Assembly (NCBI GenBank): GCA_945834475.1
Contig: CAMAHK010000014.1
Coordinates: 1 to 33,921, forward strand
Length of the DNA stretch: 33,921 nucleotides
Direction: 5' to 3'
Source of the DNA: an uncultured Verrucomicrobiota bacterium
GTDB lineage: Bacteria; Verrucomicrobiota; Kiritimatiellia; RFP12; UBA1067
How positions within the stretch are numbered: the first letter of the stretch is position 1; each line of letters starts with the position of its first letter. Positions 236-24,645 of this stretch are shown here, one piece after another. Under the pieces are notes generated by a model. That model did not search any database and was not told the DNA's origin. It worked only from the letters and a program-made list of their open reading frames with translations. Position numbers and translations under genes: made by a program.

Positions 236-1251
236 TAAACCTCGGACATCTGTTGCGCCACCGCCGCCCACGTGTACTTCGCCTCGACCAGCTTCCGTCC
301 GTTCGCCCCGATCTCGGTCCGCCGCGCGTTGTCCATCGCCATCAGCTCGTAGATCGCCTGCGCAAGACTCGCCGGATCGTTGTCGACCCACCAGCCCGCG
401 CCGCAGTCCGCCACCTCCTGCCACGGCGTGTTTGTGGACGTGACGACCGGCTTGCCGTGCGCCATGGCGTCGACAACCGTCGCGCCGAAATTCTCCGTGT
501 GGCTCACCAGCGCGAGCGCATCGCACCCCACATACTCCGCCGCGAGCTCCGCCCCGTACTTCGGTCCGACGAAGACGACCTGCGTCAACGAAAGCGATTC
601 GCACAGCCGCATCAGCTCGGCCCTGTGCCCGGCCTGATCCGGCCCCACGATGCGGAGCTGCCAGTTTTCCCGTTCACCTTCGCCTTTGCTCTTCGCCTCA
701 TCCGTTGCGCTCGCAAACGCAGCAATCAGCCGGTCAATCGCCTTCACCGGGTACACCCGACCTACAAAGAGTAGGACTTTACCGTTCTGCCGTTCGACCT
801 TCACCTCCTTCACCTCAGGCAAATGCGTCCCGAGAGACACCTCCGCAATCTGCTGCCGGAACCCGAGCCGCCGAATCCAGCCGACTTCCTTCCCGCTCGT
901 CGCATGCAGGATCTCGGCGGACTTGAGATCGCGCCACTGATAGGCCAGCCACACAGGGAGCTTCTTCCACCACTTGTGGCGGAGACTCCACGGCGCGAGC
1001 ATGCCATGCGCCGACCAGACGATCTTAATACCCTTCGCCTTCGCCCACTTCACCGCCTGATGATAGACGGGCTTCCACATGCCGTGAATATGCAGGACGG
1101 TCTCCGCCTCCGGCGCATCCGGAAGCTCCCGAGGATCCAGCACGATCCGGCTCTCGACACCCTCGTCCCCGAGCGCGGCATCCAACTCTCTCACGAACGT
1201 CGCGACCCCGCTCGCCTGAGGCAACTCGTGCGTAAAATGAAAAACCCGCAT
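148..1251 (-). CDS. GT4-family glycosyltransferase
   Basis: A 367-residue GT-B fold glycosyltransferase, expected to add a sugar to a lipid-linked repeat unit at the cytoplasmic membrane face. It has an N-terminal Rossmann start (MRVFHFTHELPQASGV), then a second domain from LLFVGRVYPVKAIDRL near residue 160 and the nucleotide-sugar signature ENFGATVVDAMAHGKPVV near residue 250. The second glutamate of the usual E-x7-E motif is Asp here. Two micro-repeat patches interrupt it, near residues 145-153 and 184-193. The C-terminal 29 or so residues are encoded by the long inverted repeat, so the native C-terminus has been replaced or extended. The start lies 4 bp after the stop of the acetyltransferase/GT2 fusion gene. 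Last gene of the polysaccharide unit visible here. Substrate not predictable. Confidence 0.9.
   Translation of the reverse strand: MRVFHFTHELPQASGVATFVRELDAALGDEGVESRIVLDPRELPDAPEAETVLHIHGMWKPVYHQAVKWAKAKGIKIVWSAHGMLAPWSLRHKWWKKLPVWLAYQWRDLKSAEILHATSGKEVGWIRRLGFRQQIAEVSLGTHLPEVKEVKVERQNGKVLLFVGRVYPVKAIDRLIAAFASATDEAKSKGEGERENWQLRIVGPDQAGHRAELMRLCESLSLTQVVFVGPKYGAELAAEYVGCDALALVSHTENFGATVVDAMAHGKPVVTSTNTPWQEVADCGAGWWVDNDPASLAQAIYELMAMDNARRTEIGANGRKLVEAKYTWAAVAQQMSEVYRRASGGGAPDTSPDPYATVVVTALAPRQ
672..700. repeat. In-frame micro-repeat patch, TTCACC type (p1)
   Basis: Degenerate hexamers GTTCACCTTCGCC and CTCTTCGCCTCA flank a short spacer inside the GT4 gene. On the coding strand the patch reads EAKSKGEGE, just before the beta strand WQLRIVGP. 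Family members normally have a short turn here. Confidence 0.6.
792..817. repeat. In-frame micro-repeat patch, TTCACC type (p2)
   Basis: CGACCTTCACCTCCTTCACCTCA on the plus strand, read as EVKEVKVER on the coding strand. It lies between the two GT-B domains, directly before the strand KVLLFVGRV. Confidence 0.6.
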
Positions 1252-1255
1252 ACGC

Positions 1256-2650
1256 CTACCCCCTACGGCTGCACCAACACCTCTTCATTCGCTTCAGCCG
1301 CCCGATCTCCCGATCACACTGCCAGCGGTACCAGAATCCCTGCCAGAAGTGCCACCGCCACCCCGTCACGCCGTCCAGGAATCCGCCCTTCAGCACATAG
1401 CGCACCAAGAAATACGCGACGACACGAAAATACGGCGGCATGCGGTAATACTGCGCCTTGCGCCGATCCTCCAAACATCCTTCGAGGGCCTGCCGCGCCT
1501 CGCGCACTGCATACCCAAGATGCTTGACCTTCCACCACGGCAACGGCTGGAGATTGTCATCGTAAAACACGACCGGCGTCTGCTGCGTCTCGCCGTCAAT
1601 CTTCAGCCGTTCGTCCATCAACGTTTCGCCGTACCGTCCCTTCCCGCGCCGGAAGAGTCGCACCATCCGAATGCCGTTCGTGCCGTGGCGAATCTCCCCG
1701 CCCATGAACTTACGTTCGAGAATGAAATCAAGGGCCGCGATCCGCTCCGGCACAAACGCCAGATTCGCCCTCAGCCACTCAATTCCTTCCGCTGTCAGAT
1801 ATTCATCCGCATCGAGTCGCAGGATCCAATTGCCCACGTCACGCGCCCCGTCCCCAACGATTTCATCAAGCACCCAGTTGAACTGACTCGCCTGTGTGCC
1901 CGGCCAATCGTGATGCACACAAGAAACGCGTCCGCGCCATTCTTCGCCCTCACCGATTTTCTCCACCAGCTCGACCGTACCATCCTCAGATCCACAATCC
2001 ACCACAATCACATTCCGCGGCATAAGCGGCACAAGCCGTTCCAGACATCTACCGACATGCAACTTCTCGTCCTTCGTCATGATGACAACGCTGATATCGG
2101 CCTGCGGATTCTTGATCTCCCGCGTCTTGATGACGCGCGCTGGGTTTCCGGCGACAACCGTCCACGGTGCCACATCCTTCGTCACCACCGCACCCGCCGC
2201 GACAACCGCTCCCTCCCCGACTGTGCGACCGGGCAACACGATCGCTCGGCTCCCGACCCAAGCATTGTCGCCTATCGTAATCGGCGCCGTCTTCAGCTCG
2301 AACCGTGGATCAGAGATGTCGTGTTCCGCCGTACAGAGAAACGCCGCCTCGCTCACGACCGCATGCGCTCCAATCCGAATCGGCGCGACGCAATAGATGT
2401 TCGCGAGATCCCCGACCCAGCTATGCTCGCCGATCTCGAGATTGTGCGGCAGCCAGATCCGCGCCCCACCATGGACGGACACCCCCCTCCCGACCTTCGC
2501 GCCGAAGAACCGCAACAACCGGCAGCGCCAGCCCTGCAACATCCACCGTGGCGTCGTCGCGCCGAAGAGTCGCCAGCAAACGTCCCAGAGAAGACGTTTC
2601 TTCTTCCCCTCGTTGCGATTCACGTATTTATCAAGTCTAACCTTAATCAC
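1256..2650 (-). CDS. Fused WcaF-like acetyltransferase and GT2 glycosyltransferase
   Basis: A 464-residue two-domain protein. The first 180 or so residues form a left-handed beta-helix acetyltransferase like colanic-acid WcaF: hexapeptide runs such as IGEHSWVGD, the probable catalytic His in TAEHDISDP, and a closing AGNPARVIK. From about residue 187 a GT2 domain follows (ADISVVIMTKDEKLHVGRC, VVDCGSEDGT, and DXD-type LRLDADEYL), resembling WaaE/KdtX-like transferases. The GTG start at 2650 is chosen because it overlaps the upstream TGA by 4 bp (GTGA) and has GAGGGAG 7 bp upstream; a longer ATG version reaching 2713 would overlap more. Such domains are usually separate genes, so one polypeptide may transfer and acetylate a sugar in succession (inference). 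Confidence 0.88.
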   Translation of the reverse strand: MIKVRLDKYVNRNEGKKKRLLWDVCWRLFGATTPRWMLQGWRCRLLRFFGAKVGRGVSVHGGARIWLPHNLEIGEHSWVGDLANIYCVAPIRIGAHAVVSEAAFLCTAEHDISDPRFELKTAPITIGDNAWVGSRAIVLPGRTVGEGAVVAAGAVVTKDVAPWTVVAGNPARVIKTREIKNPQADISVVIMTKDEKLHVGRCLERLVPLMPRNVIVVDCGSEDGTVELVEKIGEGEEWRGRVSCVHHDWPGTQASQFNWVLDEIVGDGARDVGNWILRLDADEYLTAEGIEWLRANLAFVPERIAALDFILERKFMGGEIRHGTNGIRMVRLFRRGKGRYGETLMDERLKIDGETQQTPVVFYDDNLQPLPWWKVKHLGYAVREARQALEGCLEDRRKAQYYRMPPYFRVVAYFLVRYVLKGGFLDGVTGWRWHFWQGFWYRWQCDREIGRLKRMKRCWCSRRG

Positions 2651-3705
2651 GAACACGCTCCCTCTGCTCGATTCAGATACAACCCTGTCAACCGTTCGGC
2701 GACACGACGCCAATCATAGGTCCCGGCGAGTGCGCGTGCACGAGCGCCCATCTCCCCCAGCTTTTCATCCGAAGCCTCAAGCGCGTCCTTCAAGGCCCGC
2801 ACAAAGCTCTCGCGCGTATAATCAATCCACCAGCCGCAATCCTGCTCGGCAATGCCCTTCCACGGCGTCCCCTTCGTGCAGATGACCGGTGCGCCATACG
2901 CAAGGGCCTCCAACACGACTAGCGAGAAGTTTTCCATCGGACTCGACAGGACGAAGACATCCGCCGCCCGATAAAGACGATCCTTCATCGCCTCGTCCGC
3001 CGGCCCCGCGAACTCCACCCCCCCTATTTTCTCCACCTCGACCTTTTCTCTCAGCTTCTCCCCATACCCCTGCCAGCTCGGCCCGGCGAGGACAAGCTTC
3101 CCGCTTGTTGTCTGAATCTCCTTCCAGGCCTCCAGCAACAGCTCCAGCCCCTTCTCCTCTCCCAGCCGACCAAGGAAGAGAACCATCCTCTGTTCACCTT
3201 CACCCTTCACCTTCACCTCACTTCCCACAGGCAGCCGACACCCGAGCGGCACAGTAAACGTCCGTGTGCGAATCCCCAGTGCCTCGACCGCCGTACGCTC
3301 GCCCTCGCCCGTACAATGGAGCACCGCAGCCTTCTTGAGCGCCGGCTTCACGAAAACCCAAAAGAAAAGATGTTTCTTCAGCCAACCCTTCCGCAGCACA
3401 CGCGGCATCAGTCCCCCGTGCGGGGAGACGACATACGGCACGCCATGCTGACGGCACCAGCGCATCGCGCGAACCTGACACAGCGACCAGAACGCGTGCA
3501 TGTGAACGATATCGGGACGATACCCGAGCTCATCAAGCGACTCCACCCGGCGAATCCGCACCCCCGAATCCGCGCAGTCGTTGAAGGTGAAGTGAACGAT
3601 CTCGACCTCATGACCCAAGGCGAGCTGCTCACGCGCCACTTCAATCGGGAACACCGTCGTCCCCGCCGTCCGTGGCAAGCCCTCAATGACATGTACAACG
3701 CGCAT
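2647..3705 (-). CDS. GT4-family glycosyltransferase
   Basis: A 352-residue GT-B transferase. It begins MRVVHVIEGLPRTAGTTVF, continues with VLFLGRLGEEKGLELLLEAW near residue 173, and has the intact E-x7-E signature MENFSLVVLEALAYGAPV. A micro-repeat patch (EVKVKGEGEQ) occupies the interdomain loop at residues 162-171. The ATG is preceded by an extended -10 box (TGATATAAT) only 6 bp upstream, so a leaderless transcript from this gene is possible in addition to read-through from the gene 17 bp upstream. Likely cytoplasmic, peripheral to the membrane, in repeat-unit assembly. Sugar specificity unknown. Confidence 0.9.
   Translation of the reverse strand: MRVVHVIEGLPRTAGTTVFPIEVAREQLALGHEVEIVHFTFNDCADSGVRIRRVESLDELGYRPDIVHMHAFWSLCQVRAMRWCRQHGVPYVVSPHGGLMPRVLRKGWLKKHLFFWVFVKPALKKAAVLHCTGEGERTAVEALGIRTRTFTVPLGCRLPVGSEVKVKGEGEQRMVLFLGRLGEEKGLELLLEAWKEIQTTSGKLVLAGPSWQGYGEKLREKVEVEKIGGVEFAGPADEAMKDRLYRAADVFVLSSPMENFSLVVLEALAYGAPVICTKGTPWKGIAEQDCGWWIDYTRESFVRALKDALEASDEKLGEMGARARALAGTYDWRRVAERLTGLYLNRAEGACS
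3192..3220. repeat. In-frame micro-repeat patch, TTCACC type (p3)
   Basis: Two tandem TTCACC hexamers, a spacer base, then two more and CTCA. The coding strand reads EVKVKGEGE. It lies in the same interdomain loop as patch p2 of the neighbouring GT4 gene, before MVLFLGRL. Confidence 0.75.
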
Positions 3706-3711
3706 GCACCT

Positions 3712-3720
3712 ATTATATCA
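3712..3720 (-). promoter_or_regulatory. Extended -10 box upstream of GT4 gene
   Basis: TGATATAAT on the minus strand, with its last base 6 bp before the ATG at 3705. Initiation 7 bp downstream would fall on the A of ATG, giving a leaderless internal transcript. No good -35 hexamer is visible. Confidence 0.4.
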
Positions 3721-3722
3721 AA

Positions 3723-4796
3723 TTATCCCTGGCGAACTAACGCCACCAACCTCTCCGCCGCCCATTTCGCCGTCCACTCCCCAATCGAACACGCCGGTAA
3801 CCGCCCCGTACCGTCGCTGTCCTCAGCGACAGGCGCTGACCAGCCCCCCTCACCAAGCCCCCTACTTTCTACTTCCTCCCACTCCAACTCCAGCAATCTT
3901 GCCAGCTCTCTCACATCCCCGCAATGATACAGCCGCTCCTTCGGCAACAGCGTCGGACACGCCCCGCACTCCCAGGTCCCAACGACATCCATCCCCTCTT
4001 CCAGCGCCTCGCTAACAACCGCCCCCCAACCCTCGTACCCATTCGATGCCATCACAAAAACGTCATGCTCCCGCATCGCCGCCCGAACCTCCGCCGGAGT
4101 CACCCCCGTGAGTTTAGTAAAAGTAATGGGCTCCCTACCGTCCATTCTACAACTACAACTTTCATCTACAACTATCTTAGCATTCGCAAGGGCCACCGCT
4201 CGCTCAATATCCTTCACATGTTTGAGCGGAATATCCCGCCCCGCCCACAGGACGCGCAGTGCACTGCGCGAGGTTGAGGTGGAAGGTTGAGGTGGAGGAA
4301 GAACGGATGGGGCCACGAAATATCCCCAGTCAACTATCTTCTCGGGCGTGATGCCCATTTTCAAGAAATCCCCCTTCGCCCACGGCCCGATCGCCAGGAA
4401 CTTCACGCAGTCGTTCTCATTGACGACCTTCACAAACCGCTTAACCATCCGTCGATAACTCGGCACAAGCAGACGAAGGCGCCCGAGCCGCGGCTTAAAC
4501 CATCGCTCGGATTGATAAAACGTCTTCAGCCCCTTCGCCGCCCTGCGCTCCATCAGATCGATGGGACGTATCCCGCCGATGAGGACGACATCCGCCGTCT
4601 CCAACCAGTCCCGTCCCTCCGCCGAGCGGTCCTCGAACACGTCGACGCCAACCTCGCCCCGCGCCATCTGATACGCCTGTCCCGCCTCACCCGCATGGAC
4701 ATACCGGAAATTCGACGTCCCCACCAGCGCCGCCACCGCCCGGGCCAGCGGCAGCTGATGCGTCGACACGCAATTCATGTAGAAAGCGACTTTCAT
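3723..4796 (-). CDS. Glycosyltransferase, GT-B/GT4-like
   Basis: A 357-residue protein starting MKVAFYMNCVSTHQLPLARA; the ATG overlaps the upstream stop as ATGA. A longer in-frame reading to 4997 is only a shadow of the upstream gene. The second domain starts near residue 180 (LRVLWAGRDIPLKHV), and EGWGAVVSEALEEGMDVV matches the GT4 donor-site signature. Two micro-repeat patches lie at residues 166-175 (PPQPSTSTS) and 207-217 (IVVDESCSC). A low-complexity stretch near 3865-3895 (ELEWEEVESRG) may be a third. Probably another repeat-unit transferase. The N-terminal half is divergent, so the family call is less secure than for its neighbours. Confidence 0.82.
   Translation of the reverse strand: MKVAFYMNCVSTHQLPLARAVAALVGTSNFRYVHAGEAGQAYQMARGEVGVDVFEDRSAEGRDWLETADVVLIGGIRPIDLMERRAAKGLKTFYQSERWFKPRLGRLRLLVPSYRRMVKRFVKVVNENDCVKFLAIGPWAKGDFLKMGITPEKIVDWGYFVAPSVLPPPQPSTSTSRSALRVLWAGRDIPLKHVKDIERAVALANAKIVVDESCSCRMDGREPITFTKLTGVTPAEVRAAMREHDVFVMASNGYEGWGAVVSEALEEGMDVVGTWECGACPTLLPKERLYHCGDVRELARLLELEWEEVESRGLGEGGWSAPVAEDSDGTGRLPACSIGEWTAKWAAERLVALVRQG
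4146..4175. repeat. In-frame micro-repeat patch, CTACAAC type (p4)
   Basis: TCTACAACTACAAC, a spacer, then CTACAACTA on the plus strand. The host gene is on the minus strand, so this copy is antisense relative to those at 21961 and 24391. It is still open, reading VVDESCSCR. Confidence 0.8.
4270..4298. repeat. In-frame micro-repeat patch, CAACCT type (p5)
   Basis: On the coding strand, CCACCTCAACCTT then CCACCTCAACCTC, read PPQPSTSTS. It sits in the interdomain loop before LRVLWAGRD. It is nearly the same element as the one at 21248 in the decarboxylase gene. Confidence 0.8.
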
Positions 4797-5707
4797 GTTG
4801 AGAACCCCAACTTTCTCACCCGCTTTCCCCAATACACTCCCCACACCCGCGCCGCCAGCAGCGCCGGCACCTTCCCCGCGATCCGCCGGTACAACTCCCT
4901 CACGTTCGCCAGGCGTTCCCGCCAGCTGCCGCACGGCGCGTATGATGCCCGCCGCATGTGCGTGCGCAGGTTCAGCGCAATCCACGCCGCAAAGCACGGA
5001 TCTCCCTCCGCCACGCCGTACTCCGGCAAGAACTTCCGGCGGAAGCGGATCGCCTCCTCGAAATCGTCGATATAGGACCTCTTGAACTGCGCAACGCTAC
5101 TCCCCGAATTGACCTCGTAATGATACAGGCCCTCCCGCAAAAAGCCCATCCGCGTCACGCGGCGAAACGCCTGCAGATTGATCGCGAAATCATCGTACAT
5201 CATCAGCGTCGACGGCTCGAAGCTCTCTCCAAAACACGTCTCGCGCCGATAGAGCTTCCCCCAGGCCGTTGCCGCGCCCTGGCCGTCCACGAGGACGGGA
5301 CGCACATAGCGGCGGAGAACCTCCTCCCGTCCCGCCAAGATCTCCACCCCGCCCGGCGGCTCCGCGTCGCTGTGCCATGTCTCGCATTGGACGACGTCCA
5401 GCCGCTCCGCCTCTGCGAGTTTCACCATCTTCTCGCACAGCGTCGGCTCGATGACATCGTCCGCATCCACGAACACGACATACGGCGCCGTCGTCTCGGC
5501 AACGCCCCTCAACCGCGCCGCATACCCGCCCGCATTCGCCTGGCGGATGATGCGTACGCCGTCCATCGGCGGCACGGGTTCGGGACTCCCATCGTCCACG
5601 ACCACGATCTCGACCGGCACAGTCTGCGCCTTCACGCTCGCCACCGTCTGCGGCAGCGTCGCATTCGCCCGATAAGCCGGAATAATAACCACAACCAAAT
5701 TCACCAA
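4793..5707 (-). CDS. GT2-family glycosyltransferase
   Basis: A 304-residue GT-A fold transferase. It opens VVVIIPAYRANATLPQTVAS, then VVDDGSPEPVP, NAGGYAARLRGV and the metal-binding FVDADDVIEP near residue 85. The C-terminal half carries acceptor-side residues typical of O-antigen and capsule GT2 enzymes. Start is the ATG at 5707, 9 bp after the acyltransferase stop; its own stop overlaps the next ATG. No micro-repeat patch is visible, unlike the two GT2 genes at 8815-10682. Donor and acceptor unknown. Confidence 0.9.
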   Translation of the reverse strand: MVNLVVVIIPAYRANATLPQTVASVKAQTVPVEIVVVDDGSPEPVPPMDGVRIIRQANAGGYAARLRGVAETTAPYVVFVDADDVIEPTLCEKMVKLAEAERLDVVQCETWHSDAEPPGGVEILAGREEVLRRYVRPVLVDGQGAATAWGKLYRRETCFGESFEPSTLMMYDDFAINLQAFRRVTRMGFLREGLYHYEVNSGSSVAQFKRSYIDDFEEAIRFRRKFLPEYGVAEGDPCFAAWIALNLRTHMRRASYAPCGSWRERLANVRELYRRIAGKVPALLAARVWGVYWGKRVRKLGFST

Positions 5708-5716
5708 AACCTCCCC

Positions 5717-6781: not shown

Positions 6782-6783
6782 AA

Positions 6784-7994: not shown

Positions 7995-8818
7995 CGCAAG
8001 CCGCCTTTCCTCAAGAGGTCCCCGATTCGCGTCTTGCACATCAGCAACACGGCATGGATCCACATGACGAGCGTGTAACGATTTTCGACCAACTCGCACC
8101 CTTCGTAGATCAAGCCGCTCCAATCCTCATTCTTCAGCGCAAGTCCATACCACCTGCTCGGCACTAGAACGCGCTTCCCCTTGTTTCCATTCAGATACGC
8201 GCCCCACCAACTGAAAGAGGAATTACTGCAAATGTTGTGATGACACAACGTGTGAATGTAAAGCTGCGTCAGTACGTCTTCATTTTCGATAAAGACAAAC
8301 TGACGTTCGGGACACATCTTCGGCAAGTTCGCCTTGCACCAGGGTATGTCATCACTGCAAACGACATAGATTGCCTTTGCATCGAACGACCGTATCGCCC
8401 GCTTGAGGTACGACTTCCCGACAAACGGATGTCTGTGCGGCAGAGCCAGATAGTCTCCGCGCCTGACGCTTACACCGACAACCAACTCCTTGTTCAGTAT
8501 CCCGGCAGAACGTTCGCGAAGACGGGCCCTAACTCTTTCAGGCATGCGAAGCAACTCGCGCACCAGCCCCTCGTCCATGACTCGGACATCCTGATAAAGT
8601 CCCGTCCGCAAGAGCGACTTGTCGTCCGGCTCTTCGTCCGTAATCGTCACCTCCGGGAAGAGCTCGCGGTACTTCTCGACCGCCGGCCAGTCGTTCCGGT
8701 CCTGAATGACGAAGACAACCTCACCCTCCGGCGCAGCCGACTTGGCCGCAGCGTATTGAAACAGCCAGTTCCCCAGCCGCGTCACCTTCGGACGTATCTC
8801 GACGAACACCTTCTTCAT
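7991..8818 (-). CDS. GT11 alpha-1,2-fucosyltransferase-like protein
   Basis: A 275-residue GT11 family member. The start MKKVFVEIRPKVTRLGNWLF matches the family N-terminus (G-x-L-GNQLFQ-like). VGVSVRRGDYLA near residue 130 is the GDP-fucose-binding R-R-G-D-Y motif. ICSNSSFSWWGAYLN is the conserved C-terminal SxSSFSWW block. Predicted to move L-fucose from GDP-fucose onto the repeat unit. No GDP-fucose synthesis genes lie in the window. The ATG at 8818 overlaps the upstream stop; the longer ATG reading to 8950 is rejected as a shadow. Confidence 0.92.
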   Translation of the reverse strand: MKKVFVEIRPKVTRLGNWLFQYAAAKSAAPEGEVVFVIQDRNDWPAVEKYRELFPEVTITDEEPDDKSLLRTGLYQDVRVMDEGLVRELLRMPERVRARLRERSAGILNKELVVGVSVRRGDYLALPHRHPFVGKSYLKRAIRSFDAKAIYVVCSDDIPWCKANLPKMCPERQFVFIENEDVLTQLYIHTLCHHNICSNSSFSWWGAYLNGNKGKRVLVPSRWYGLALKNEDWSGLIYEGCELVENRYTLVMWIHAVLLMCKTRIGDLLRKGGLR

Positions 8819-9654
8819 CGCGGCCTCCGTAAGATTTCCAGGAATCGCACGAGGGATGCCTTCGCGTACCTGAGGCGAATCCGAATGCCGGCCTCGCGCG
8901 TCGCCAGAAGAATCGCGAGCACATGAACTGTATACCGAAAGGCATCCCAACGCTTCTTCAACGAACGCGGCGCATGTTGGGCAGAGGCCCCATGAACGCG
9001 ATACCGGTAGCCGATGCGATCAGACAGGACAACCTTCTCCGCACGGCGGGCCAAGCGCGCGACAAAGACACGGTCGGCGCCGATCGCATACGACGGAAAG
9101 CGCAGTCCCGCAAGGATCTCGCGGCGGATGAACATCTGCGCAAAGCTCGTCATCTCCAGCTTAAGCGGAAGCGAATCCGCGCGCCCGTAGACACGAACGC
9201 CACTCGACGCCGTTCCGCCGGAACACCCCAGCTCCTCGAGTCCCAAGGCCACCAACGACGCATCCGGATGCGCGGCCACGAGCTCCATCGCCCCCGAGAT
9301 CATCTCGGGCGCATAGACATCATCCGCATCCAGAAACCCAACCCAGTTCCCCGTCGCAGCCTCCAAACCTGCATTCCGAGCCGCCCCCTCACCACGATTT
9401 TTCTGATGCAAAACCCTAACCCCGTACCGCGGTGCGTCCTCGCCCGCGGCGCCTCCAAGCCTCCATCCCATCGCCGACCACTCGTCCAAGATCTCCCCCG
9501 ACCCGTCCGTCGACCCGTCATCCACGCAAATAATCTCAATCGCCCATTTATCACTCATCATTCTAAGTTTATCACTCGCAGCGACAACGCTGCGTAGGCA
9601 CTCGTGCAAATACGGTGCCACATTGTAGACGGGAATGACAATTGAGAACTTCAT
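8815..9654 (-). CDS. GT2-family glycosyltransferase
   Basis: A 279-residue GT2 enzyme: FSIVIPVYNVAPYLHECLRS, ICVDDGSTDGSGEILDEW, NRGEGAARNAGLEAATGNW and FLDADDVYAPEM (DXD). Its start overlaps the upstream stop (ATGA), so the first 100 or so residues of the longer reading to 9957 are discarded. It is a close paralogue of the next gene upstream. Both carry low-complexity insertions between helix 1 and strand 2 and between helix 2 and strand 3, but with different sequence. Here the first is a TTTATCACTC direct repeat (residues 26-36) and the second a G-rich stretch (RLGGAAGEDAPRYG). Confidence 0.9.
   Translation of the reverse strand: MKFSIVIPVYNVAPYLHECLRSVVAASDKLRMMSDKWAIEIICVDDGSTDGSGEILDEWSAMGWRLGGAAGEDAPRYGVRVLHQKNRGEGAARNAGLEAATGNWVGFLDADDVYAPEMISGAMELVAAHPDASLVALGLEELGCSGGTASSGVRVYGRADSLPLKLEMTSFAQMFIRREILAGLRFPSYAIGADRVFVARLARRAEKVVLSDRIGYRYRVHGASAQHAPRSLKKRWDAFRYTVHVLAILLATREAGIRIRLRYAKASLVRFLEILRRPR
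9547..9577. repeat. In-frame micro-repeat patch, TTTATCACTC type (p6)
   Basis: Two perfect copies of TTTATCACTC (9547-9556 and 9568-9577) separated by 11 bp. The coding strand reads SDKLRMMSDKW, immediately before the GT2 strand IEIICVDDGS. Same word-spacer-word layout as the hexamer patches but a different word. Confidence 0.65.
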
Positions 9655-10682
9655 CGATGAATGCCGTGGCGTTTCAGCCACTGCGGCACATAGAATAGCA
9701 AAAACGCAGTTCCTTTGCACGGCCAAACGGCAAAGAGCCTCAGGACGAACCGTTGATATGTCGAGAGTTCCCCGACCTGCCGCAAATCCAGCAACGCCTT
9801 CCGCCAGTCGGACCAGACACGCTTCTGCAGATCCCCGCGACACGAGAAGAACCGCTCCGCATACCACTCGGTCAGATCCTGCCCAAGCCGCCGCCACATC
9901 GCGCGCGGATAGCTTCGCGCCGAGTTCCGCCACAGCAGGACCTGCTCGGACGGCCATAGCTCCGAGCGGAGTTTCTCGATTGTATACGACGAGTTCATCG
10001 CCGACCCCGAACGTTGCCGATAGCCGTAGAGTTCGGCTTCAAGACGGCAGACGACGCGCACGCGATCCATGAACGAGAGGAAGAAGAGCCGATCCTCGCC
10101 GCGCACGTAGGACGGGAATCGAATGCCCTTCAGCGCTTTCCGCGAATAGGCCATACAATAGAACGCCGTGCGCCAAAGCTTGGGTTCGATTTCGCGCACA
10201 AGCTCATGACGCGTCGCCGCCGACCCCATTTCGCCAGACCACGCCGGGAGCTGATCATCCTCAAACATCCGCATCCCGAACTGCACGGCCTCTACGTCCG
10301 GATGCGCCGCAAGAGCTTCCTCAACGACCGAGAGCCACCCGGAACGCATCACGTCATCCCCGTCCACAAACAACACCCAATCCCCAGAAGCCTCATCCAT
10401 TCCCCGGTTCCGCGCCGCGCTGACCCCAAGATTTTGCTGATGTAAAATCTTGTAGGTGTAGAGAGAAGGTGTAGGTGTAGAATGGTGGAAGAACTCGTCC
10501 AAGATCTCGCCCGACCCATCCGTCGACCCATCATCGACGCAAATAACCTCAACCCTCCACTCTACACCTACACCTTCACCTATCCTCTTCACCTCCTGTG
10601 CAGCGTCCATCACGCTGCGCAGGCACGCACGCAAATACGGCGCAACGTTGTAGACGGGGATTACAATTGAGATCTTAGCCAT
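9651..10682 (-). CDS. GT2-family glycosyltransferase
   Basis: A 343-residue GT2 enzyme: ISIVIPVYNVAPYLRACLRS, VICVDDGSTDGSGEILDE, NLGVSAARNRGMDEASGDW and FVDGDDVMRSG. The metal site reads DGD rather than the usual DAD/DSD. The C-terminal 120 residues are rich in Trp, Arg and aromatic residues and may associate with the membrane. It carries two hexamer patches of the same class in opposite orientations (residues 29-40 and 66-77). The ATG at 10682 overlaps the 3' end of the pyruvyl-transferase gene by 22 bp. Confidence 0.9.
   Translation of the reverse strand: MAKISIVIPVYNVAPYLRACLRSVMDAAQEVKRIGEGVGVEWRVEVICVDDGSTDGSGEILDEFFHHSTPTPSLYTYKILHQQNLGVSAARNRGMDEASGDWVLFVDGDDVMRSGWLSVVEEALAAHPDVEAVQFGMRMFEDDQLPAWSGEMGSAATRHELVREIEPKLWRTAFYCMAYSRKALKGIRFPSYVRGEDRLFFLSFMDRVRVVCRLEAELYGYRQRSGSAMNSSYTIEKLRSELWPSEQVLLWRNSARSYPRAMWRRLGQDLTEWYAERFFSCRGDLQKRVWSDWRKALLDLRQVGELSTYQRFVLRLFAVWPCKGTAFLLFYVPQWLKRHGIHR
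10451..10485. repeat. In-frame micro-repeat patch, CTACACC type (p7)
   Basis: Coding strand: TCTACACCTACACC, spacer, CTACACCTA, translated STPTPSLYTY before the strand KILHQQN. Same orientation and frame as the patches in the decarboxylase (21961) and hydrolase (24391) genes. Confidence 0.85.
10561..10594. repeat. In-frame micro-repeat patch, CTACACC type, inverted copy (p8)
   Basis: TCTACACCTACACC followed by TTCACCTATCCTCTTCACC, on the plus strand, so it is antisense in its gene and opposite to p7 only 75 bp away. Read as EVKRIGEGVGVEW before the strand VEVICVDDGS. Confidence 0.8.
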
Positions 10683-11770
10683 GTCAACGACTCCTCTCTC
10701 AACGATTCAAGTTTCTGCTCAACATCCGGTGCGCCCAGGCGCAACAAGCGTTCCATCTCGTCGATTGACACCTGCGGATTCACCAGTCGCTCCGGACAGC
10801 CCAGCTTTCGCAAAAGCGCGGCCGGACGCGAATCGTGTTCGTCAACCTGCTCCCTGAGGGACAGGAACGGCTTCCCGAAGACGACGCCCATGACCGTGCC
10901 GTGAAAGGATCCGGCGAGAACATACCTTGCCTGGCGCGCATATTGGACAAGCCGATCCGGCGAAACCAAAAACTCAAAGTCTTCCGGTGCACCGAGTTTT
11001 GAATAGGCGTAGCACGGTGCAATCACGCAGCGCACCCCGAGCCGTGCAGCTAGCGCACGAGCCGTCTCGACAAAGAACGCATTCGTGTCCAACGCATACA
11101 ACAAGAGGTAGGGTTCCCGAGGGACCTCCCCGCCGGCAATTTCATCATAATCCGATGCGCTCACCAACAGCGTCGGATCAAGCGTCTCCGCGACAGGCCT
11201 TTCGGCAAATGCCGACAGTTGCTCCCGCGCAAGCGACTCGCGCACGGAGACGGCCTTGAAGTTGGCGAGCGCCCTCCCGAGCCTCTCGAGGCATTCGCCC
11301 GCAAGGGGACTGTCCCCGTAACTCGCGGCATATGCAATCGCCGGCACAGTCTTCGGCTTGCTCTCGCACAAGAAGAGCGCAGCCTCCTCGGACGTGTGAT
11401 GGATGCTGAAAACCTGGTCGCTCCCAACGACCAGAATGTCGTAGCAAGATGCGAAGTCGGCTGGCGCAATGCGACGCTCCGGCAAATGACGACGACGAAA
11501 GACTCGATAGCGATGGCGCAGGATGTCGTAATTCGGAATCGAGCACGCGTTCACAACGAATCGGCCGAGAACAGACCGGATCTTTGCAACCACGCCTTTC
11601 TTATCAGGGTTGATCCAGCCATACTGCCAACGCCCTGACTCGCCGACATGATTGCACGCCGGAAACTCAGCACGATGCCCCATCCGCTCCAGCGTCTTCT
11701 TCAGCGCCCACGCCTGAAGCATGGCACCGCAGTTATAGGCCCGATGAAATGTCAAAATGCCGATGCGCAT
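10661..11770 (-). CDS. Polysaccharide pyruvyl transferase family protein
   Basis: A 369-residue member of PF04230. MRIGILTFHRAYNCGAMLQA is the typical start, VVGSDQVFSIHH the GSDQ block near residue 105, and LAGSFHGTVMGVVFGKPFLS the C-terminal SxxHG block. Characterised members add ketal pyruvate from phosphoenolpyruvate to a sugar, making the polymer acidic. The gene lies 1 bp after the nitroreductase-like gene, a pairing common in bacterial polysaccharide clusters. No insertion patch seen. Confidence 0.9.
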   Translation of the reverse strand: MRIGILTFHRAYNCGAMLQAWALKKTLERMGHRAEFPACNHVGESGRWQYGWINPDKKGVVAKIRSVLGRFVVNACSIPNYDILRHRYRVFRRRHLPERRIAPADFASCYDILVVGSDQVFSIHHTSEEAALFLCESKPKTVPAIAYAASYGDSPLAGECLERLGRALANFKAVSVRESLAREQLSAFAERPVAETLDPTLLVSASDYDEIAGGEVPREPYLLLYALDTNAFFVETARALAARLGVRCVIAPCYAYSKLGAPEDFEFLVSPDRLVQYARQARYVLAGSFHGTVMGVVFGKPFLSLREQVDEHDSRPAALLRKLGCPERLVNPQVSIDEMERLLRLGAPDVEQKLESLREESLTWLRSQL

Positions 11771-17625: not shown

Positions 17626-17655
17626 CTCAACTCCAAAATCTTTCCCAGCCCCCAA

Positions 17656-17684
17656 ATAATATCAAATCCCACCCCTATGAGCAA
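17656..17684 (-). promoter_or_regulatory. Probable promoter of pyruvyl-transferase/GT2 pair
   Basis: Minus strand: TTGCTC, 17 bp, TATTAT, with TG one base before the -10 (TGATATTAT). Initiation would fall about 20 bp before the ATG at 17625. The -35 matches only the first three consensus positions. Confidence 0.45.
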
Positions 17685-17719
17685 GCAGGCAAATCTGCGT
17701 GGCGTACTGGACTATTCAG

Positions 17720-17954
17720 TCGACGCGCAAGCGGTGGCGGGGCGCCCGACACATCGCCCGACCCGTACGCTACGGTGGTCGTTACGGCTCTCGCGCCTAG
17801 ACTATAAGCTTCGCTTAGTCGGTCGTGCCTGGGCGAGACGTCTGGTTGCGTACAGTGACTCTCCTACGCCTACGACACCTACGCTTCCTCTCGTGCGAGT
17901 GTCGGCTCGCCCCGACCCCGCTTGCCGAAGTCTTCTTTTGCGCGGCTTCGCCTT
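17720..17954. repeat. Right arm of 235-bp long inverted repeat
   Basis: Matches the reverse complement of 1-235 with seven substitutions. It occupies most of the only large gap (17626-18030) inside the polysaccharide locus, between the second flippase and the pyruvyl-transferase promoter. Plus-strand reading frames through it, one starting at 17677, are compositionally unlike proteins, so I treat it as non-coding. The 76 bp from 17955 to 18030 may also belong to the repeat, but its partner would be outside the window. Confidence 0.95.
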
Positions 17955-18030
17955 GAGGGCGAACCGCTTACTGAAACAGCACGACTTGTTGGGCGTGTTA
18001 ACCCGCGTGGAATCGCGAAGCACACCCCCT

Positions 18031-19545: not shown

Positions 19546-19554
19546 CCGTCTCCG

Positions 19555-21063
19555 CTAGCCGAGTCGCCGCGTCCACGCGTCCAGCCCCTCTTCCGCTGTC
19601 ACCTCCGCAATCACCCGCTCAATCGGCACCCAGAAGACCTGCATGCCGGCCGTCTTCATCCGTTGCACATCAAAGCAGATCGCCGCGAACGTGAGCGCCC
19701 AGAAAAAGCCGCCCGTATACGACATCGCAAACAGACAGAACTCGCCCATGTTCGCGACAAGAAACGTGAAGAAGACACTCGCGCCCATGTACGCGTGCCG
19801 CTTCGCGAGAGTCACGATCAGAAAGATCGCCCATCCCGTAAAGAGAATCATCCCGATCGCGCCGCCTTCCTCAATGACCGCAAAGATCCACGTCCCCTTC
19901 TCGACCGGTGCCGTCAGGTACGATGCAAAACCCTCGTACCGTTGATACTGCATCTCTTCCGAAACCTGAAACCCGTGACCCTGCACCGGTTTCTCCTTGA
20001 TATGGGCGAACATCTCGTCGAACTTGCCCTGTCGGGACGCCAACACGTCCTCGGTCGTCATGTGCGCCGTGTCGCTGCCGTATTTCAGCACGTACTTCAT
20101 CACGCCCTCGCGCAGTTGCGGCACGGCCACGACGGCAAGGCCCAGGACAACCGTCCCGCAGATGACAAGATTCGTCAGCTTCTGCTTCCAACCCCGTCCG
20201 AGTCCCTTCGCACCAAAGGCAAACATCATGACCATCCCGCAACCGGCGATCCACGTGCCCATGCCCGTGCGGGACGACGTCCAGAAGACGAGCAACGGAC
20301 AGCAGAGGCACAGCGCGACATAGAGCTTGTCAAACCGCTTGATCGAAAAGACGAGGTCCGCGAAGAGAAAGACGCCGAGCATCGCGCCGAGCGGCCCCAA
20401 CACCTGCGAGTGGCACGTCATTCCCGTAAAAAGACTGACCGTCTCACCCGACAGAACCGCCTGTAGCGCCTCCTCGCCCTGCAGCTGCGCAAGACCCGAT
20501 CGGCGGAGCAGCACCGACCCGAAGATGATGACGATGCAAAGGCCCAGGAACGCCGAGCGCAAGATCTTCGCATTGAGGCGCGTCGAGCGGTTGACGCGGT
20601 TCGTGCAGCAGACGAGCGCGAAGAAGATGACGAAAAAGAGCGTCAGCTTGAGGTATGAGACAACTGGCTGCCAGCCCTGCACCGACACGACGCATTCCCA
20701 ACCGATATAGGCGAGAATCCCCCAGAATGGCGTCACCATCCGCGCCGCCTGCTTGTTGCGCGAAATAAGGTTCATCGACAAAATGCCCGCCATCAGCATG
20801 AGCGTGATGCGCACGGTCAGAATGGCAATGACATTGTTGGCGAAGAGCTTGCGGTTGGCCATTGAGAAGAAGAGCATGAACACCGTCCAAAACAACAGCT
20901 CGACCGGCCGGTCGCGCATGATGGCACCCAGAACGAGAAGTGGCACCACCGCCATAATGGCAATACCGCCGGTGGCCTTACCCAGAACCATCGTCGCCAA
21001 GACGATCGCCGCATACTTGGCAATCGTCTTCCATTCATACTGCCGCTCGACAATCTCGACCAT
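19555..21063 (-). CDS. O-antigen polymerase/ligase-like membrane protein (Wzy-like)
   Basis: A 502-residue protein with eleven to twelve hydrophobic segments and a large periplasmic loop between the late helices (from about KYVLKYGSDTAHMTTEDVLA, near residue 325, into the region around HIKEKPVQGHGFQ). This is the Wzy_C/O-antigen ligase layout, where the pattern SRxGxxxxxxAHIKEKPxxGxG recurs; here ASRQGKFDEMFAHIKEKPVQ fits. It would join flipped repeat units in the periplasm. Placement next to Wzx favours polymerase over WaaL ligase, but sequence alone cannot separate the two. Confidence 0.87.
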   Translation of the reverse strand: MVEIVERQYEWKTIAKYAAIVLATMVLGKATGGIAIMAVVPLLVLGAIMRDRPVELLFWTVFMLFFSMANRKLFANNVIAILTVRITLMLMAGILSMNLISRNKQAARMVTPFWGILAYIGWECVVSVQGWQPVVSYLKLTLFFVIFFALVCCTNRVNRSTRLNAKILRSAFLGLCIVIIFGSVLLRRSGLAQLQGEEALQAVLSGETVSLFTGMTCHSQVLGPLGAMLGVFLFADLVFSIKRFDKLYVALCLCCPLLVFWTSSRTGMGTWIAGCGMVMMFAFGAKGLGRGWKQKLTNLVICGTVVLGLAVVAVPQLREGVMKYVLKYGSDTAHMTTEDVLASRQGKFDEMFAHIKEKPVQGHGFQVSEEMQYQRYEGFASYLTAPVEKGTWIFAVIEEGGAIGMILFTGWAIFLIVTLAKRHAYMGASVFFTFLVANMGEFCLFAMSYTGGFFWALTFAAICFDVQRMKTAGMQVFWVPIERVIAEVTAEEGLDAWTRRLG

Positions 21064-21072
21064 ACTGCGCTA

Positions 21073-22143
21073 TTACACCATTTTACCCGCGCTGGCTGAC
21101 GCGAATTGACGAAAGTAGGCGATCGTCTTCACGAGGCCTTCGGCCAGCGAAACCTTCGGCTCCCAGCCGAGCAGTTCCTTCGCGAGCGTGATGTCGGGCT
21201 TGCGCTTCTTCGGATCATCTCCCGGGAGTGGCTCGTAGACGAGACGAGAGGTTGAGGTTGGAAGGTTGAGGTTGACGTTGGACGCGTTAACGAGTTCTAT
21301 TACCTTTTCGGCCAACTCCAGCATCGTGAACTCACCGGGATTTCCCGTGTTGATGACCGGCACAGCCGGCCGACACGCCTTCCCCGTAAAGAAACCGTCC
21401 ACGGTTTCGCGGGGAAGCTCCATATAAAGACGAATCGCGTCGATCAGGTCATCGCAATACTGAAAGGAGCGCGTCTGCGAGCCATCGCCGTAGATCGTGA
21501 TGTTCTCGTTCGTGAGGGCCTGCATCACGAAGTTGGTGATGACACGTCCGTCCTGAGGATGCATGTAGGGTCCGTACGTGTTGAAGATGCGGACCATCCG
21601 CACGTCGACGCCGTGGCAGCGACGATACTCCGCCGCCATCGTCTCCGCGACGCGCTTGCCCTCGTCGTAGCAGCTACGGATGCCGATCGTGTTGACGTTC
21701 CCCCAATACGACTCGACCTGCGGATGCACAAGCGGGTCGCCGTAGACTTCCGAAGTCGACGTGTGCAGAACTTTCGCGCCCGTATCCCGCGCGAGATTGA
21801 GCACATTGCGCAAGCCGTCGATCGAGGTCCACAGCGTCTCCAGCGGATTCTTCTGGTAATGCGGCGGTGAAGCCGGACAGGCGAGATTGTAGATCTCGTC
21901 GAACTGCCCGCGGTACGGCTGCGTAATGTCGTGCTGGACGAACGTGAAGCGAGGGTGATAGTTGTAGTTCTGAGTTGTAGTTGTAGAGCGGATGATTGCT
22001 TCTACATTGCGAGAAGAGCCGGTATAGAGGTTGTCGAGACAGGTGACCTCATAGCCATCCTCTAGGAGACGTTTGCAAAGATGCGTCCCCAGGAAGCCCG
22101 CGCCTCCGGTCACCAAAGCCTTTTTAGGAAGTTGAATCTTCAT
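21073..22143 (-). CDS. uxs: UDP-glucuronate decarboxylase (UDP-xylose synthase)
   Basis: A 356-residue extended SDR enzyme that converts UDP-glucuronate to UDP-xylose with bound NAD. The Rossmann motif is [12 protein letters not shown] at residues 11-22. The substrate region reads [20 protein letters not shown], and the catalytic Ser and Tyr-x3-Lys lie in STSEVYGDP and [29 protein letters not shown] is the typical C-terminal block. Two micro-repeat patches expand loops at residues 51-61 ([10 protein letters not shown]) and 289-298 ([10 protein letters not shown]); ordinary homologues have short turns there. The ATG at 22143 is used since the longer reading to 22254 runs back through rarA. Gap to the rarA stop is 7 bp. 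Confidence 0.93.
21248..21276. repeat. In-frame micro-repeat patch, CAACCT type (p9)
   Basis: Coding strand: CAACCTCAACCTT then CCAACCTCAACCTC, read [10 protein letters not shown]. It lies before [12 protein letters not shown] of the decarboxylase, where homologues have only two or three residues. Near-identical to p5 at 4270. Confidence 0.85.
21961..21989. repeat. In-frame micro-repeat patch, CTACAAC type (p10)
   Basis: Coding strand: TCTACAACTACAACTCAG followed by AACTACAACTA, read [10 protein letters not shown], inserted between the helix after [14 protein letters not shown] and the strand RFTFVQHDI. Closely matches p11 (STPTPQNYTS) in an unrelated gene. Confidence 0.88.
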
Positions 22144-22150
22144 GGCAATT

Positions 22151-23533
22151 TTACTTTCGTCCAATATACGCTTCACTCGAGAACGGCGGAGTCTCGGTCT
22201 TGCCCTCGCGCCAGTCGCGGATCGCCTTCGCCCGCGCCTTGAGATTCGCCTCACGACCGAGGCCGGCGGGCGTGTAGTAGCGGCGGCCCTGTAGCGCTTC
22301 GGGGAGACAACTCATCCGCGCGATCTTCTCGTCGGTGTCGTGCGCGTACGTATAGCCCTTGCCGTAGTCGAGCTCCTTCATAAGACGCGTGGGGGCATTG
22401 CGGATGTGGAGCGGCACCGGCTCGGCCATCATCGTCTGCGCGTCGCGCGCCGCCCTCAGGTACGTCTCCTCCATCGCGTTCGACTTCGGCGCGAGCGCAA
22501 GATAGACGACAATCTGAGTCAGGTGCACGTTGCACTCGGGAATGCCGAGATTGTGACACGAGTCCCAGACGGCGTTCGCCAGAAGAAGCGCGTTCGGATC
22601 GGCGAGGCCGACGTCTTCGGACGCGAACCTGACGCACCGCCGCGCGATGTAGAGCGGATCCTCGCCGCCTTCCAGCATTCGCGCGAGCCAGTAGACCGCC
22701 GCGTCGGGATCGGAATTACGCATCGACTTGTGGAGCGCGGAAATGATGTTGTAGTGCTCCTCGCCCGACTTGTCGTACATCAGCGCCTTGCGCGAGATGA
22801 TCTGCGAGAGGACGTCCTCCGTAATCGCGGGCTTGCCGTTCGCGTCGAAGACCGCGTTCGCGACGGCCGTCTCCAAAGTGCCGAGCGCATGGCGTGCGTC
22901 GCCGTTCGAGAAGATCGCGATCTTCTTGAGCGTGTCGTCCGTCGCCTGCACGTCGAGCTTCGCGTACCCGCGCTCGCTCGTGAGCGCACGGCGGAGGAGC
23001 ACGACGAGATCGTCGGCGGTGAGCCCCTTGAGCGTGAAGACCTTGCAGCGCGAGAGCAAGGCCGAGTTGCACTCGAACGAGGGATTCTCCGTCGTCGCGC
23101 CGATGAGGATGATCGACCCCTGCTCGACATACGGGAGGAACGCGTCCTGCTGCGCCTTGTTGAAGCGGTGGATCTCGTCCACAAAAAGCACCGTGCGGAT
23201 CCCGACGCGGCGACCAGTCTCGGCACGCGCCATGATCTCCTTGATTTCCTTGATGCCGCTCGTCACGGCCGAGTAGGTCACGAATTCGGCCTTGGTGAGA
23301 TTCGCGATCACGTTGGCGAGCGTCGTCTTGCCGACGCCCGGCGGTCCCCAGAGGATCATCGAGGGGATCTGGTCGCGCTCGATCATCTGCCGGAGAAGCT
23401 TCCCCTCGCCGACGAGATGCTCCTGCCCGACAAACTCCGAGAGATCCCGCGGACGCATCCGCGCCGCGAGAGGTTCGGGGGCGGCCAAGGCGGAGTCGCC
23501 CGCCAGGCCTTCGATAAGGGACATCTGTCGCAT
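22151..23533 (-). CDS. rarA: Replication-associated recombination protein A (RarA/MgsA)
   Basis: About 460 residues, an AAA+ clamp-loader-like ATPase acting at stalled replication forks. The start block is [20 protein letters not shown]; Walker A is [18 protein letters not shown] near residue 53; Walker B is [18 protein letters not shown]; sensor 1 is [12 protein letters not shown]. The C-terminal tetramerisation region includes [20 protein letters not shown] and [19 protein letters not shown]. The start at 23533 is preferred because an extended -10 lies just upstream, which would make the mRNA leaderless; ATGs at 23539, 23551 and 23524 are alternatives. It is a chromosomal housekeeping gene next to the glycan locus. 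Confidence 0.95.
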
Positions 23534-23539
23534 GGGCAT

Positions 23540-23548
23540 ATTATACCA
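23540..23548 (-). promoter_or_regulatory. Extended -10 box for rarA
   Basis: TGGTATAAT on the minus strand. Seven bases beyond the -10 is the A of the ATG at 23533, suggesting a leaderless transcript. No -35 match is evident, as is usual for TGn promoters. Confidence 0.55.
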
Positions 23549-23564
23549 CAATGACTGAAAATTA

Positions 23565-23573
23565 TGGTATAAT
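23565..23573 (+). promoter_or_regulatory. Extended -10 box for tRNA-Lys
   Basis: TGGTATAAT on the plus strand, ending 21 bp before the tRNA 5' end. It is the mirror copy of the rarA box. Confidence 0.6.
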
Positions 23574-23594
23574 ATGCCCCACTTAAACCCTGAT

Positions 23595-23670
23595 CGGATT
23601 GTAGCTCAGTTGGTAGAGCACGACACTTTTAATGTTGGGGTCGCGGGTTCGACCCCCGCCAGTCCGACCA
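23595..23670 (+). tRNA. tRNA-Lys (anticodon TTT)
   Basis: A 76-nt cloverleaf with CCA encoded. Acceptor stem CGGATTG/CAGTCCG (one G-T pair), D arm TAGCTCAGTTGGTAGAGCA, anticodon stem CGACA/TGTTG around CTTTTAA (anticodon TTT), and T arm GCGGG TTCGACC CCCGC. It is the only RNA gene seen and the only clear plus-strand gene in the window. Confidence 0.97.
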
Positions 23671-23673
23671 CTT

Positions 23674-23847
23674 TCAAATCGCCAGCGCCTTGCGGGTTGC
23701 TGTCGTCAGGGGGACGCTCAGCGGATGATGACCACCTTCTGCCGCCGGGTTAAAGTCGCCCGGAATCTGGACGGCCTGAATTGCAGGAGCCAATCGTTCG
23801 GCGAGCCGTTCGCGTGCCGACAGCTTTGAGAAGTCATCGTCCATCAT
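23674..23847 (-). CDS. Hypothetical 57-residue protein downstream of DUF2235 hydrolase
   Basis: A short frame starting MMDDDFSKLSARERLAERLA and ending PLTTATRKALAI, stop TGA at 23674-23676. It is in the same frame as the hydrolase gene, beginning 24 bp after its TAG, so it could be a separate cistron or a stop-codon read-through tail. The acidic start and helical SARERLAERLAPAIQA look protein-like, and codon use suits the region. No strong ribosome site is seen. Function unknown; a small partner or immunity-like protein is possible. It ends 3 bp from the convergent tRNA. Confidence 0.55.
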   Translation of the reverse strand: MMDDDFSKLSARERLAERLAPAIQAVQIPGDFNPAAEGGHHPLSVPLTTATRKALAI

Positions 23848-23871
23848 CCAAAATCGCGCAAACGTACGATC

Positions 23872-24645
23872 CTAAAACGACAGATCTCCATGCCGCTTCA
23901 TCCCCACTTGGAACCTGCGCGAGACCGGCCTGAGAAGTCCGAAAAGGTTTGAGACAAGACGTTGTGAATCGTGGCGGATTGCCGTCAGCGGATTGATTCG
24001 GTCGCCGCAGTCAAGTTCCTGCGCGAAGCGGAGTCCGGCGACAAGCGCCGGACGCACCACCCACGCGCAGGCCACGTCGGCGTACTCATGGTTGTCGTCA
24101 TAGAGTCCGCCGACATCGGAGTGGACGCCCGGGAAAAGCTCTTCTTCAACCTGCTTGCCCGTGAGCGGCACATACGAGAAGAAGCGCCGCGCCTCGTGTT
24201 CCGCAACGGCGTGACGGGCACGCTTCACGTTCGGGGGACACACCTCGCTCACGGTAAGTCCCGGCGTCGCGTCGACCGTATCCCAGAGGCCCAAGTACTC
24301 GACCGCAATGACGAGCTTGTCGAGCCACGCGGCGAAGTGTCGCGCCAAAAGCGCCCCGCGCGAGAAGCCGAAGAGGAACACCTTTGGGGAGGTGTAGTTT
24401 TGAGGTGTAGGTGTAGACTGGATTGCGTACTCCGACTCGAACCACCTTCGCGCGCTCTGAAAGATCTTTTGCCAGTCACGGCCCGCGACCTTGCCGCGCA
24501 AGTAATACCAGGGATGCGTTCCCGGTCCCGTCTCGAGATGCAGCCGCTGCCCTTCCCGCGCACACGCCTCGTAGACGCGCGACACGTTCGTCCGCTTGCC
24601 GTGGACGCCCTGTCCCGTTCCCTCGAAGAAGATCGCGAGATTCAC
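23872..24645 (-). CDS. DUF2235 alpha/beta hydrolase (Tle1-like)
   Basis: About 257 residues of the DUF2235 family (PF09994), which includes the type VI lipase effectors Tle1. VNLAIFFEGTGQG is the start block (family C-x-DGTGN), VFLFGFSRGALLARHFA near residue 88 holds the nucleophile serine in G-F-S-R-G, and LFPGVHSDVGGLYDDN holds the catalytic Asp and adjacent conserved residues. Only a GTG at 24645 gives a sensible start, because frames further upstream are shadows. A micro-repeat patch (STPTPQNYTS, residues 75-85) replaces the usual short turn before the nucleophile strand. No secretion signal and no type VI genes are seen. It lies just downstream of the 185-residue gene. Confidence 0.85.
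   Translation of the reverse strand: MNLAIFFEGTGQGVHGKRTNVSRVYEACAREGQRLHLETGPGTHPWYYLRGKVAGRDWQKIFQSARRWFESEYAIQSTPTPQNYTSPKVFLFGFSRGALLARHFAAWLDKLVIAVEYLGLWDTVDATPGLTVSEVCPPNVKRARHAVAEHEARRFFSYVPLTGKQVEEELFPGVHSDVGGLYDDNHEYADVACAWVVRPALVAGLRFAQELDCGDRINPLTAIRHDSQRLVSNLFGLLRPVSRRFQVGMKRHGDLSF
24391..24421. repeat. In-frame micro-repeat patch, CTACACC type (p11)
   Basis: Coding strand: TCTACACCTACACCTCAA then AACTACACCTCC, read STPTPQNYTS immediately before KVFLFGFSRGA. It differs from p10 mainly by A-to-C changes at repeated positions. It shows the patches are not confined to the polysaccharide locus. Confidence 0.88.

Follow-up and report, generated by a model that had tools for sequence, protein, structure and literature searches.

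How did short patches of tandemly repeated DNA come to lie, in frame, inside seven protein genes of a single bacterial contig? The window considered here is the whole of contig C14 (33.9 kb) of an uncultured Verrucomicrobiota bacterium, which belongs to a 2.57-Mb draft genome (G000, the source genome) that is 85.5% complete and close to Kiritimatiellae from herbivore guts. The patches are probably single arms, tolerated in protein loops, that have dispersed from small mobile elements similar to the intervening sequences (IVSs) of 23S rRNA. A complete element of this kind spans ~0.4-0.5 kb and comprises a 5' arm of tandem words of 6-9 nucleotides (nt) that runs up to the start codon, a gene for S23p, the four-helix-bundle '23S rRNA intervening-sequence protein' (PF05635), and a complementary 3' arm. 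Since the elements that could be mapped are located outside rRNA, the name 23S rRNA IVS is not applied to the window patches, which are classed here as solo arms of S23p elements that are IVS-like.

The patches of the window

Eleven patches were named in the preliminary description (Table 1), and nine of these are recovered by Tandem Repeats Finder (TRF), at 798, 3193, 4147, 4270, 10451, 10562, 21248, 21959 and 24390. The remaining two, at 672 and 9547, are absent from the TRF list of the window. The former is weak, the patch at 792 rests on two 9-mers, and the G-strand word of the patch at 9547, AGTGATAAA, resembles the 7-mer class of the source genome. A strict 6-6-7-6 layout, with words at offsets 0, 6, 13 and 19, is fitted by seven window patches. 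The host genes do number seven, namely three GT4-type and two GT2 glycosyltransferases, an epimerase-family decarboxylase and a DUF2235/Tle1-like protein; with five glycosyltransferases among them, their description as unrelated was overstated. The patches do occur in both orientations with open frames, as had been observed, and such open frames are expected from selection.

The patches are real and lie far above chance, as emerged from the comparison with shuffled sequence. Low-G patches of period 6-9 number 130 in 788,808 bases of the source genome, against 9, 7 and 11 in three order-2 Markov shuffles, and the 6-6-7-6 layout occurs 24 times in 434 kb, where two shuffles gave a mean of 0.0. 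For a plain 6-6-6-6 tandem in the same 434 kb, the excess over shuffles was below 5. These counts of layout and of word identity were relied on in place of an IUPAC pattern for the patches, which was not clean (its reversed control matched 35 times, against 66 matches in the source genome). Ten of the 130 low-G patches fall in the window, seven at places named earlier and three elsewhere; one of the latter, at 23233, was set aside as ordinary, since it is kept in relatives.

Among the host genes of the window, the decarboxylase was the one compared with its relatives, taken as the best 80 of 306 loci, some of which share one genome. Had its patches been ancient loops, relatives would be expected to carry the same residues; the comparison was run in full for this enzyme, and both patches came out as in-frame insertions. 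That at 21957-21986 adds 10 residues and faces a gap in all 80 fetched relatives, and that at 21248-21280 adds nine and faces a gap in 79 of the 80. Relative to human UXS1, each insertion measures 10 residues. Both fall where relatives vary. One relative (L087) carries, elsewhere in the same enzyme, a 27-residue in-frame insert that is SLCLCASVLKKT-like.

Collinear alignments of the source genome with its relative G058 contain 49 gaps, of which 10 hold a patch only in the source genome, eight only in G058, one in both and 30 in neither. The 18 gaps patched in only one of the two genomes, together with the in-frame insertions, bear out the initial view of a proliferating and apparently selfish family of micro-insertions. 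At some sites the two genomes carry patches of differing words. Shared hotspots as a rule were nevertheless rejected, as only one of the 49 gaps is patched in both, though single sites with different words exist. In one gap between aligned blocks (L013:12587-12704) the source sequence holds a palindromic element with GTACCCGGCGTGACCTCACGCC arms, and G058 has an inverted pair built of words there.

S23p genes and their arms

PF05635 was sought in 13 genomes; 12 contain a match and 11 a match over the cut-off, for 33 over-cut-off genes in all. Word arrays, G-rich on the upstream side and C-rich on the downstream side, enclose many of these genes, and each element has a word of its own. An array lies within 150 nt upstream of 19 of the 33 genes, as compared with 45 of 796 non-overlapping control open reading frames (ORFs; 5.7%, Fisher 2e-14), and downstream of 20 of the 33, as compared with 60 of the 796 (7.5%, Fisher 1e-13). 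The first 27 genes yielded 18 upstream and 17 downstream arrays, set against controls (4.3% up, 6.8% down) that included overlapping, partly spurious ORFs. The 5' and 3' arms of a gene are also complementary to one another, above the 95th percentile of cross-pairs, in 26 of 32 testable genes (22 of 27 in the first set). The window patches themselves are without an ORF, and a PF05635 ORF is found between the arms in complete elements. The preliminary characterization of the patches as non-palindromic is incomplete: they correspond to a single arm of an element in which terminal inverted repeats enclose an S23p gene, and for some of them a head-to-head pairing persists. In two of the S23p genes (L296, L307) the words of their own 3' arm encode the C-terminus of the protein.

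In the source genome, three word classes (7-, 8- and 9-mers) form the arms of resident S23p or S23p-like genes. The element at C6:56496 is built of AGTGATA 7-mers; its start codon lies within the last 5' word, its 3' arm begins at the stop codon (TAACCACCGCCACTTATC), and both of its ends reappear at the head of solo 7-mer patches. The S23p gene at C15:30944 has arms of AATAATCG 8-mers, and the S23p-like gene at C10:31686, whose PF05635 match is below the cut-off, has 9-mer arms; each shares its word class with solo patches of the same genome. The hexamer class, which dominates the window, rests on relatives, where alone its S23p elements are seen. These include a gene in G030 at C125:7213 (word TCCAAC), with another at 10871 that is cut by the contig end, an element with plain TTCACC/TTCGCC hexamers on G013:C50, and a truncated S23p-like gene between two inverted arms on G010:C21, with weak PF05635 matches of 22.9 and 20.9 bits. 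Solo arms match the S23p arms of their own genome in 20 of 130 cases in the source genome, 22 of 48 in G030, 5 of 17 in G013 and 2 of 10 in G033.

Complete elements differ in their presence between species. The site of the C15 element spans 533 nt between two genes in the source genome, and 5, 41, 25, 75, 45 and 32 nt in six relatives; in G033 the site is 136 nt long and holds an array of the same word class, a solo-array version. The site of the C6 element spans 485 nt in the source genome, and 57 and 61 nt in the two relatives that could be placed; placement failed for two more. Both mapped elements sit between protein genes, outside 23S rRNA.

Single arms are ~25-40 nt long and mostly consist of 4-5 words and a head that matches the start- or stop-codon end of an element. 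They outnumber complete elements and are found both between genes and, with the frame kept, within protein genes. With the C15 region as query, matches to the arms alone make up 81 of 87 in G033 and 31 of 35 in G058, as counted by eye. On the C-rich strand the head, with the consensus TCC-A-Y-T-S (the A in only about half), is conserved ahead of the words irrespective of which word follows, as judged from 41 copies in five other species, collected with word filters, and 61-63 copies in the source genome. The words change as a block: among 84 hexamer copies, collected with word filters and without requiring equal words, the first, second and fourth words are identical in 74, against a permutation mean of 2.6 and maximum of 7. 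Hexamer words of the source genome are TCAACC (19), TCCACC (9), TACACC (5), TACAAC (4), TTCAAC (3) and TTCACC (1), and those of relatives include TCCAAC in G030 (11), TTCACC in G010 (8), and TACACC (6) and TTCAAC (3) in G013. At periods of 6-8 most arms have 4-5 units, and the unit number varies. At a score of at least 13 against the upstream 90 nt, a head-to-head inverted partner was found for 5 of 63 hexamer patches, in four pairs, as compared with 1 of 189 random draws; no downstream inverted partner was found for any of the 63. Ahead of one and the same downstream gene, G058 and G012 each carry an S23p gene (L298, L301) whose words have changed in concert (TTCGGGG vs TTCGTGG). Elsewhere, downstream of L308 and at L020:14195-14330, single 3' arms form head-to-tail series of three or four repeats at a spacing of about 50 nt.

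The association extends to plasmids, where S23p relatives are mostly cyanobacterial, and to viral contigs; the counts that follow cover 16 of 24 plasmid records and 10 of 12 viral loci. The plasmid genes have an upstream array in 11 of 16 cases, a downstream array in 14 and complementary arms in 10, and the ten viral contigs have them in seven, four and seven, respectively. Control windows from the plasmid and viral loci contain an array in 3.4% of 297 cases. The plasmid arrays are mostly heptamers and look like short tandemly repeated repetitive sequences (STRRs). Phage records gave no S23p match. On two cyanobacterial plasmids the S23p gene lies between cas6 and cas4, and on a third between cas10 and a cmr3-family gene (L325, L328, L333).

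Origin and movement of the arms

Several observations weigh against the patches being arms of S23p elements. At the thresholds used, 14 of the 33 PF05635 genes have no upstream array and 13 no downstream array, arm complementarity is lacking in 6 of 32, and plasmid genes L328, L331 and others are without the full arm pattern. No hexamer-armed S23p element is present among the PF05635 matches of the source genome, at its 85.5% completeness. Own-genome arm matches are 0 of 22 in G010, 0 of 96 in G058 and 0 of 4 in G012, where some solo arms match the arms of other genomes. Many of the arm matches obtained with the C15 region as query are double-counted owing to the complementary arms or belong to the S23p genes of G033 and G058 themselves; those in G033 amount to ~40 places by eye. 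Finally, 58 of the 63 hexamer patches are without an inverted partner at the threshold used.

The alternatives are less probable. Were the arms host regulatory or translation signals, with S23p incidental, they would have spread by recombination and been kept for function, as proposed for the TAACTGA repeats. Their position directly 5' of S23p start codons fits this, as does the translational-regulation role that MacGregor (2015) suggests for similar heptamers (PMC4679880), but many patches occur within enzyme genes, in frame and in either orientation, the arms of S23p genes are complementary, and their presence differs between related species; we consider such an origin unlikely. That the patches are ordinary microsatellites, each expanded on the spot from a seed that arose by chance, through slippage during replication and with no link to a mobile gene, is quite improbable. 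It would suit short tandem words of variable unit number, and the decarboxylase insertions do lie at sites that vary in relatives. However, a non-repeat head and a 6-6-7-6 layout are common to different words and species, the differences from relatives are of whole length, and arrays bracket S23p genes; slippage alone was dropped on the head, the layout and the S23p link.

Repetitive extragenic palindromic (REP)-like sites moved by Y1 tyrosine transposases (REP-associated tyrosine transposases, RAYTs) might be invoked, given that the source genome has 10 PF01797 matches, seven of them over the cut-off and several with repeats in their flanks, and that an AGGTGGAGA array similar to the hexamer class lies 321 nt from L275. 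Yet a GC-rich palindrome of another kind flanks the clearest RAYT (G000:C1:14092), AT-rich ones flank L149 and L277, and the word classes of the window are not regular neighbours of the 10 PF01797 genes, which makes this origin very improbable. Template-driven repeat synthesis by a reverse transcriptase, whether of a diversity-generating retroelement (DGR) or of the DRT10/telomerase-like kind (PMC12632851), is hardly credible. The identical words within an arm look copied from one template, and the Avd protein of DGRs resembles PF05635 (PMC10053308), but the source genome, 85.5% complete, gave no RVT_1 match. The same result speaks against the label 'diversity-generating' that had been attached to the patches.

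As a separate observation, the RAYT-like Y1 transposase gene on C1 (L009:14092-14778) has eight exact GC-rich palindromes, CGTACCGCGGTGCG, on either strand within 1.5 kb, and a 12-mer of this palindrome, GTACCGCGGTGC, occurs 45 times in 434 kb.

If the patches are arms of S23p elements, S23p, or a partner recruited by it, may bind the arms and drive copying, more often of single arms than of whole elements. S23p has been termed a homopentamer (PMC4990558), and the structure 2gsc is a pentamer of five chains. One ring of like subunits could read several like words in a row, and because such a ring would read several words, it would explain why words are alike within an arm, change in concert and number 4-5 units at period 6-8. 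Selection would keep only in-frame arms in tolerant loops of genes. Mobility is inferred from the comparison of genomes. A wider proposal is tentative, and we lean against it: the five-subunit ring might itself be the mobility factor, reading about five words, any word serving if repeated, and moving single arms and whole elements without a known transposase or reverse transcriptase. STRRs, TAACTGA arrays and many bacterial 'microsatellite' patches might then be the litter of one ancient protein-ring mobile family that also writes protein loops.

Linking S23p proteins with scattered short tandem words gives each a testable partner, and suggests where the short repeat patches of many bacteria come from. 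It also offers a concrete route by which enzymes could gain ready-made loops of ~10 residues, along with a warning that such protein patches may be remains of mobile DNA and not adaptive features.

Known repeats and coordinates

In anatomy the elements resemble the IVSs of 23S rRNA. The IVS of Coxiella is reported to have terminal inverted repeats, and its S23p start codon to be directly preceded by tandem heptamers (PMC4990558); the elements described here similarly combine a PF05635-type ORF, terminal inverted repeats and tandem words directly 5' of the start codon. They differ in that the two mapped ones lie between protein genes, in having arms dispersed alone and in words of 6-9 nt. S23p proteins were without known function as of 2016, according to the same source. 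Cyanobacterial STRRs, usually 7-bp tandem repeats capable of forming hairpins, had a function 'still not known' in 2009 (PMC2670836); the likeness lies in the mostly heptamer arrays that flank S23p genes on cyanobacterial plasmids. The TAACTGA repeats of Beggiatoaceae are likewise short heptamer arrays, mostly just 5' of start codons and some in ORFs, for which mobility was considered and 'no mechanism is evident' for horizontal spread, as of 2015 (PMC4679880). Unlike the arms described here, they consist of a single word, and 'S23' is absent from the text of PMC4679880. Among the open-licence papers listed, none was seen, by title and abstract opening, to tie S23p genes to STRR-like words.

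Rickettsia palindromic elements are in-frame insertions in many unrelated protein genes and are palindromic and longer, whereas the patches described here are mostly single arms of ~30 nt, with a head-to-head partner for only the five hexamer patches noted above. Miniature inverted-repeat transposable elements (MITEs) are short non-autonomous repeats more numerous than their parent gene. The REPIN/RAYT system similarly has short non-autonomous repeats that outnumber the gene to which they belong. Both differ from the S23p element, which is without a transposase and has arms of tandem words.

Table 1. Repeat patches of the window and two of their host genes, with strand and remarks (layout scores refer to the 6-6-7-6 arrangement)
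Feature	Position	Strand	Host gene and remarks
Patch TTCACCTTCGCC..CTTCGCC	672..698	+	GT4 gene 148-1251(-); weakest of set; read from sequence, absent from TRF list
Patch CCTTCACCTCCTTCACCT	792..817	+	GT4 gene 148-1251(-); weak, only two 9-mers, TRF score 38
Solo arm (TTCACC)2 C (TTCACC)2, head CCTCTG	3193..3218	+	GT4 gene 2647-3705(-); layout 24/24, TRF score 50
Solo arm, word TACAAC, head TCCATTC (start-codon type)	4147..4175	+	ORF 3723-4997(-); layout 22/24
Solo arm CCACCTCAACCTT x2	4270..4298	-	ORF 3723-4997(-); layout 22/24, TRF score 52
7-mer-class patch TTTATCACTCATCATTC..TTTATCACTC	9547..9580	+	GT2 gene 8815-9957(-); word resembles S23p-element arms at G000:C6:56496
Solo arm, word CTACAC, head CCATTC	10451..10480	-	GT2 gene 9651-10682(-); layout 21/24
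Solo arm, words TACACC/TTCACC, head CCACTC	10561..10595	+	GT2 gene 9651-10682(-); layout 21/24
Solo arm (TCAACC)2..(CAACCT)2	21248..21280	-	Decarboxylase gene 21073-22254(-); insertion vs relatives
Solo arm, word TACAAC, head CCGCTC	21957..21986	-	Decarboxylase gene 21073-22254(-); layout 22/24; encodes 10 residues
Solo arm, word TACACC, head CCAGTC	24389..24416	-	DUF2235/Tle1-like gene 23872-25041(-); layout 21/24
Host gene, GT2 glycosyltransferase	9651..10682	-	PF00535 E 7e-29; two patches
Host gene, UDP-glucuronate decarboxylase-like	21073..22254	-	PF16363/PF01370; 2b69 E 1e-95; two insertions

The window also contains a perfect 12-nt repeat, TTCAGGGTACTT, in 3.8 copies at 27545-27590, within the ORF 27361-28812.

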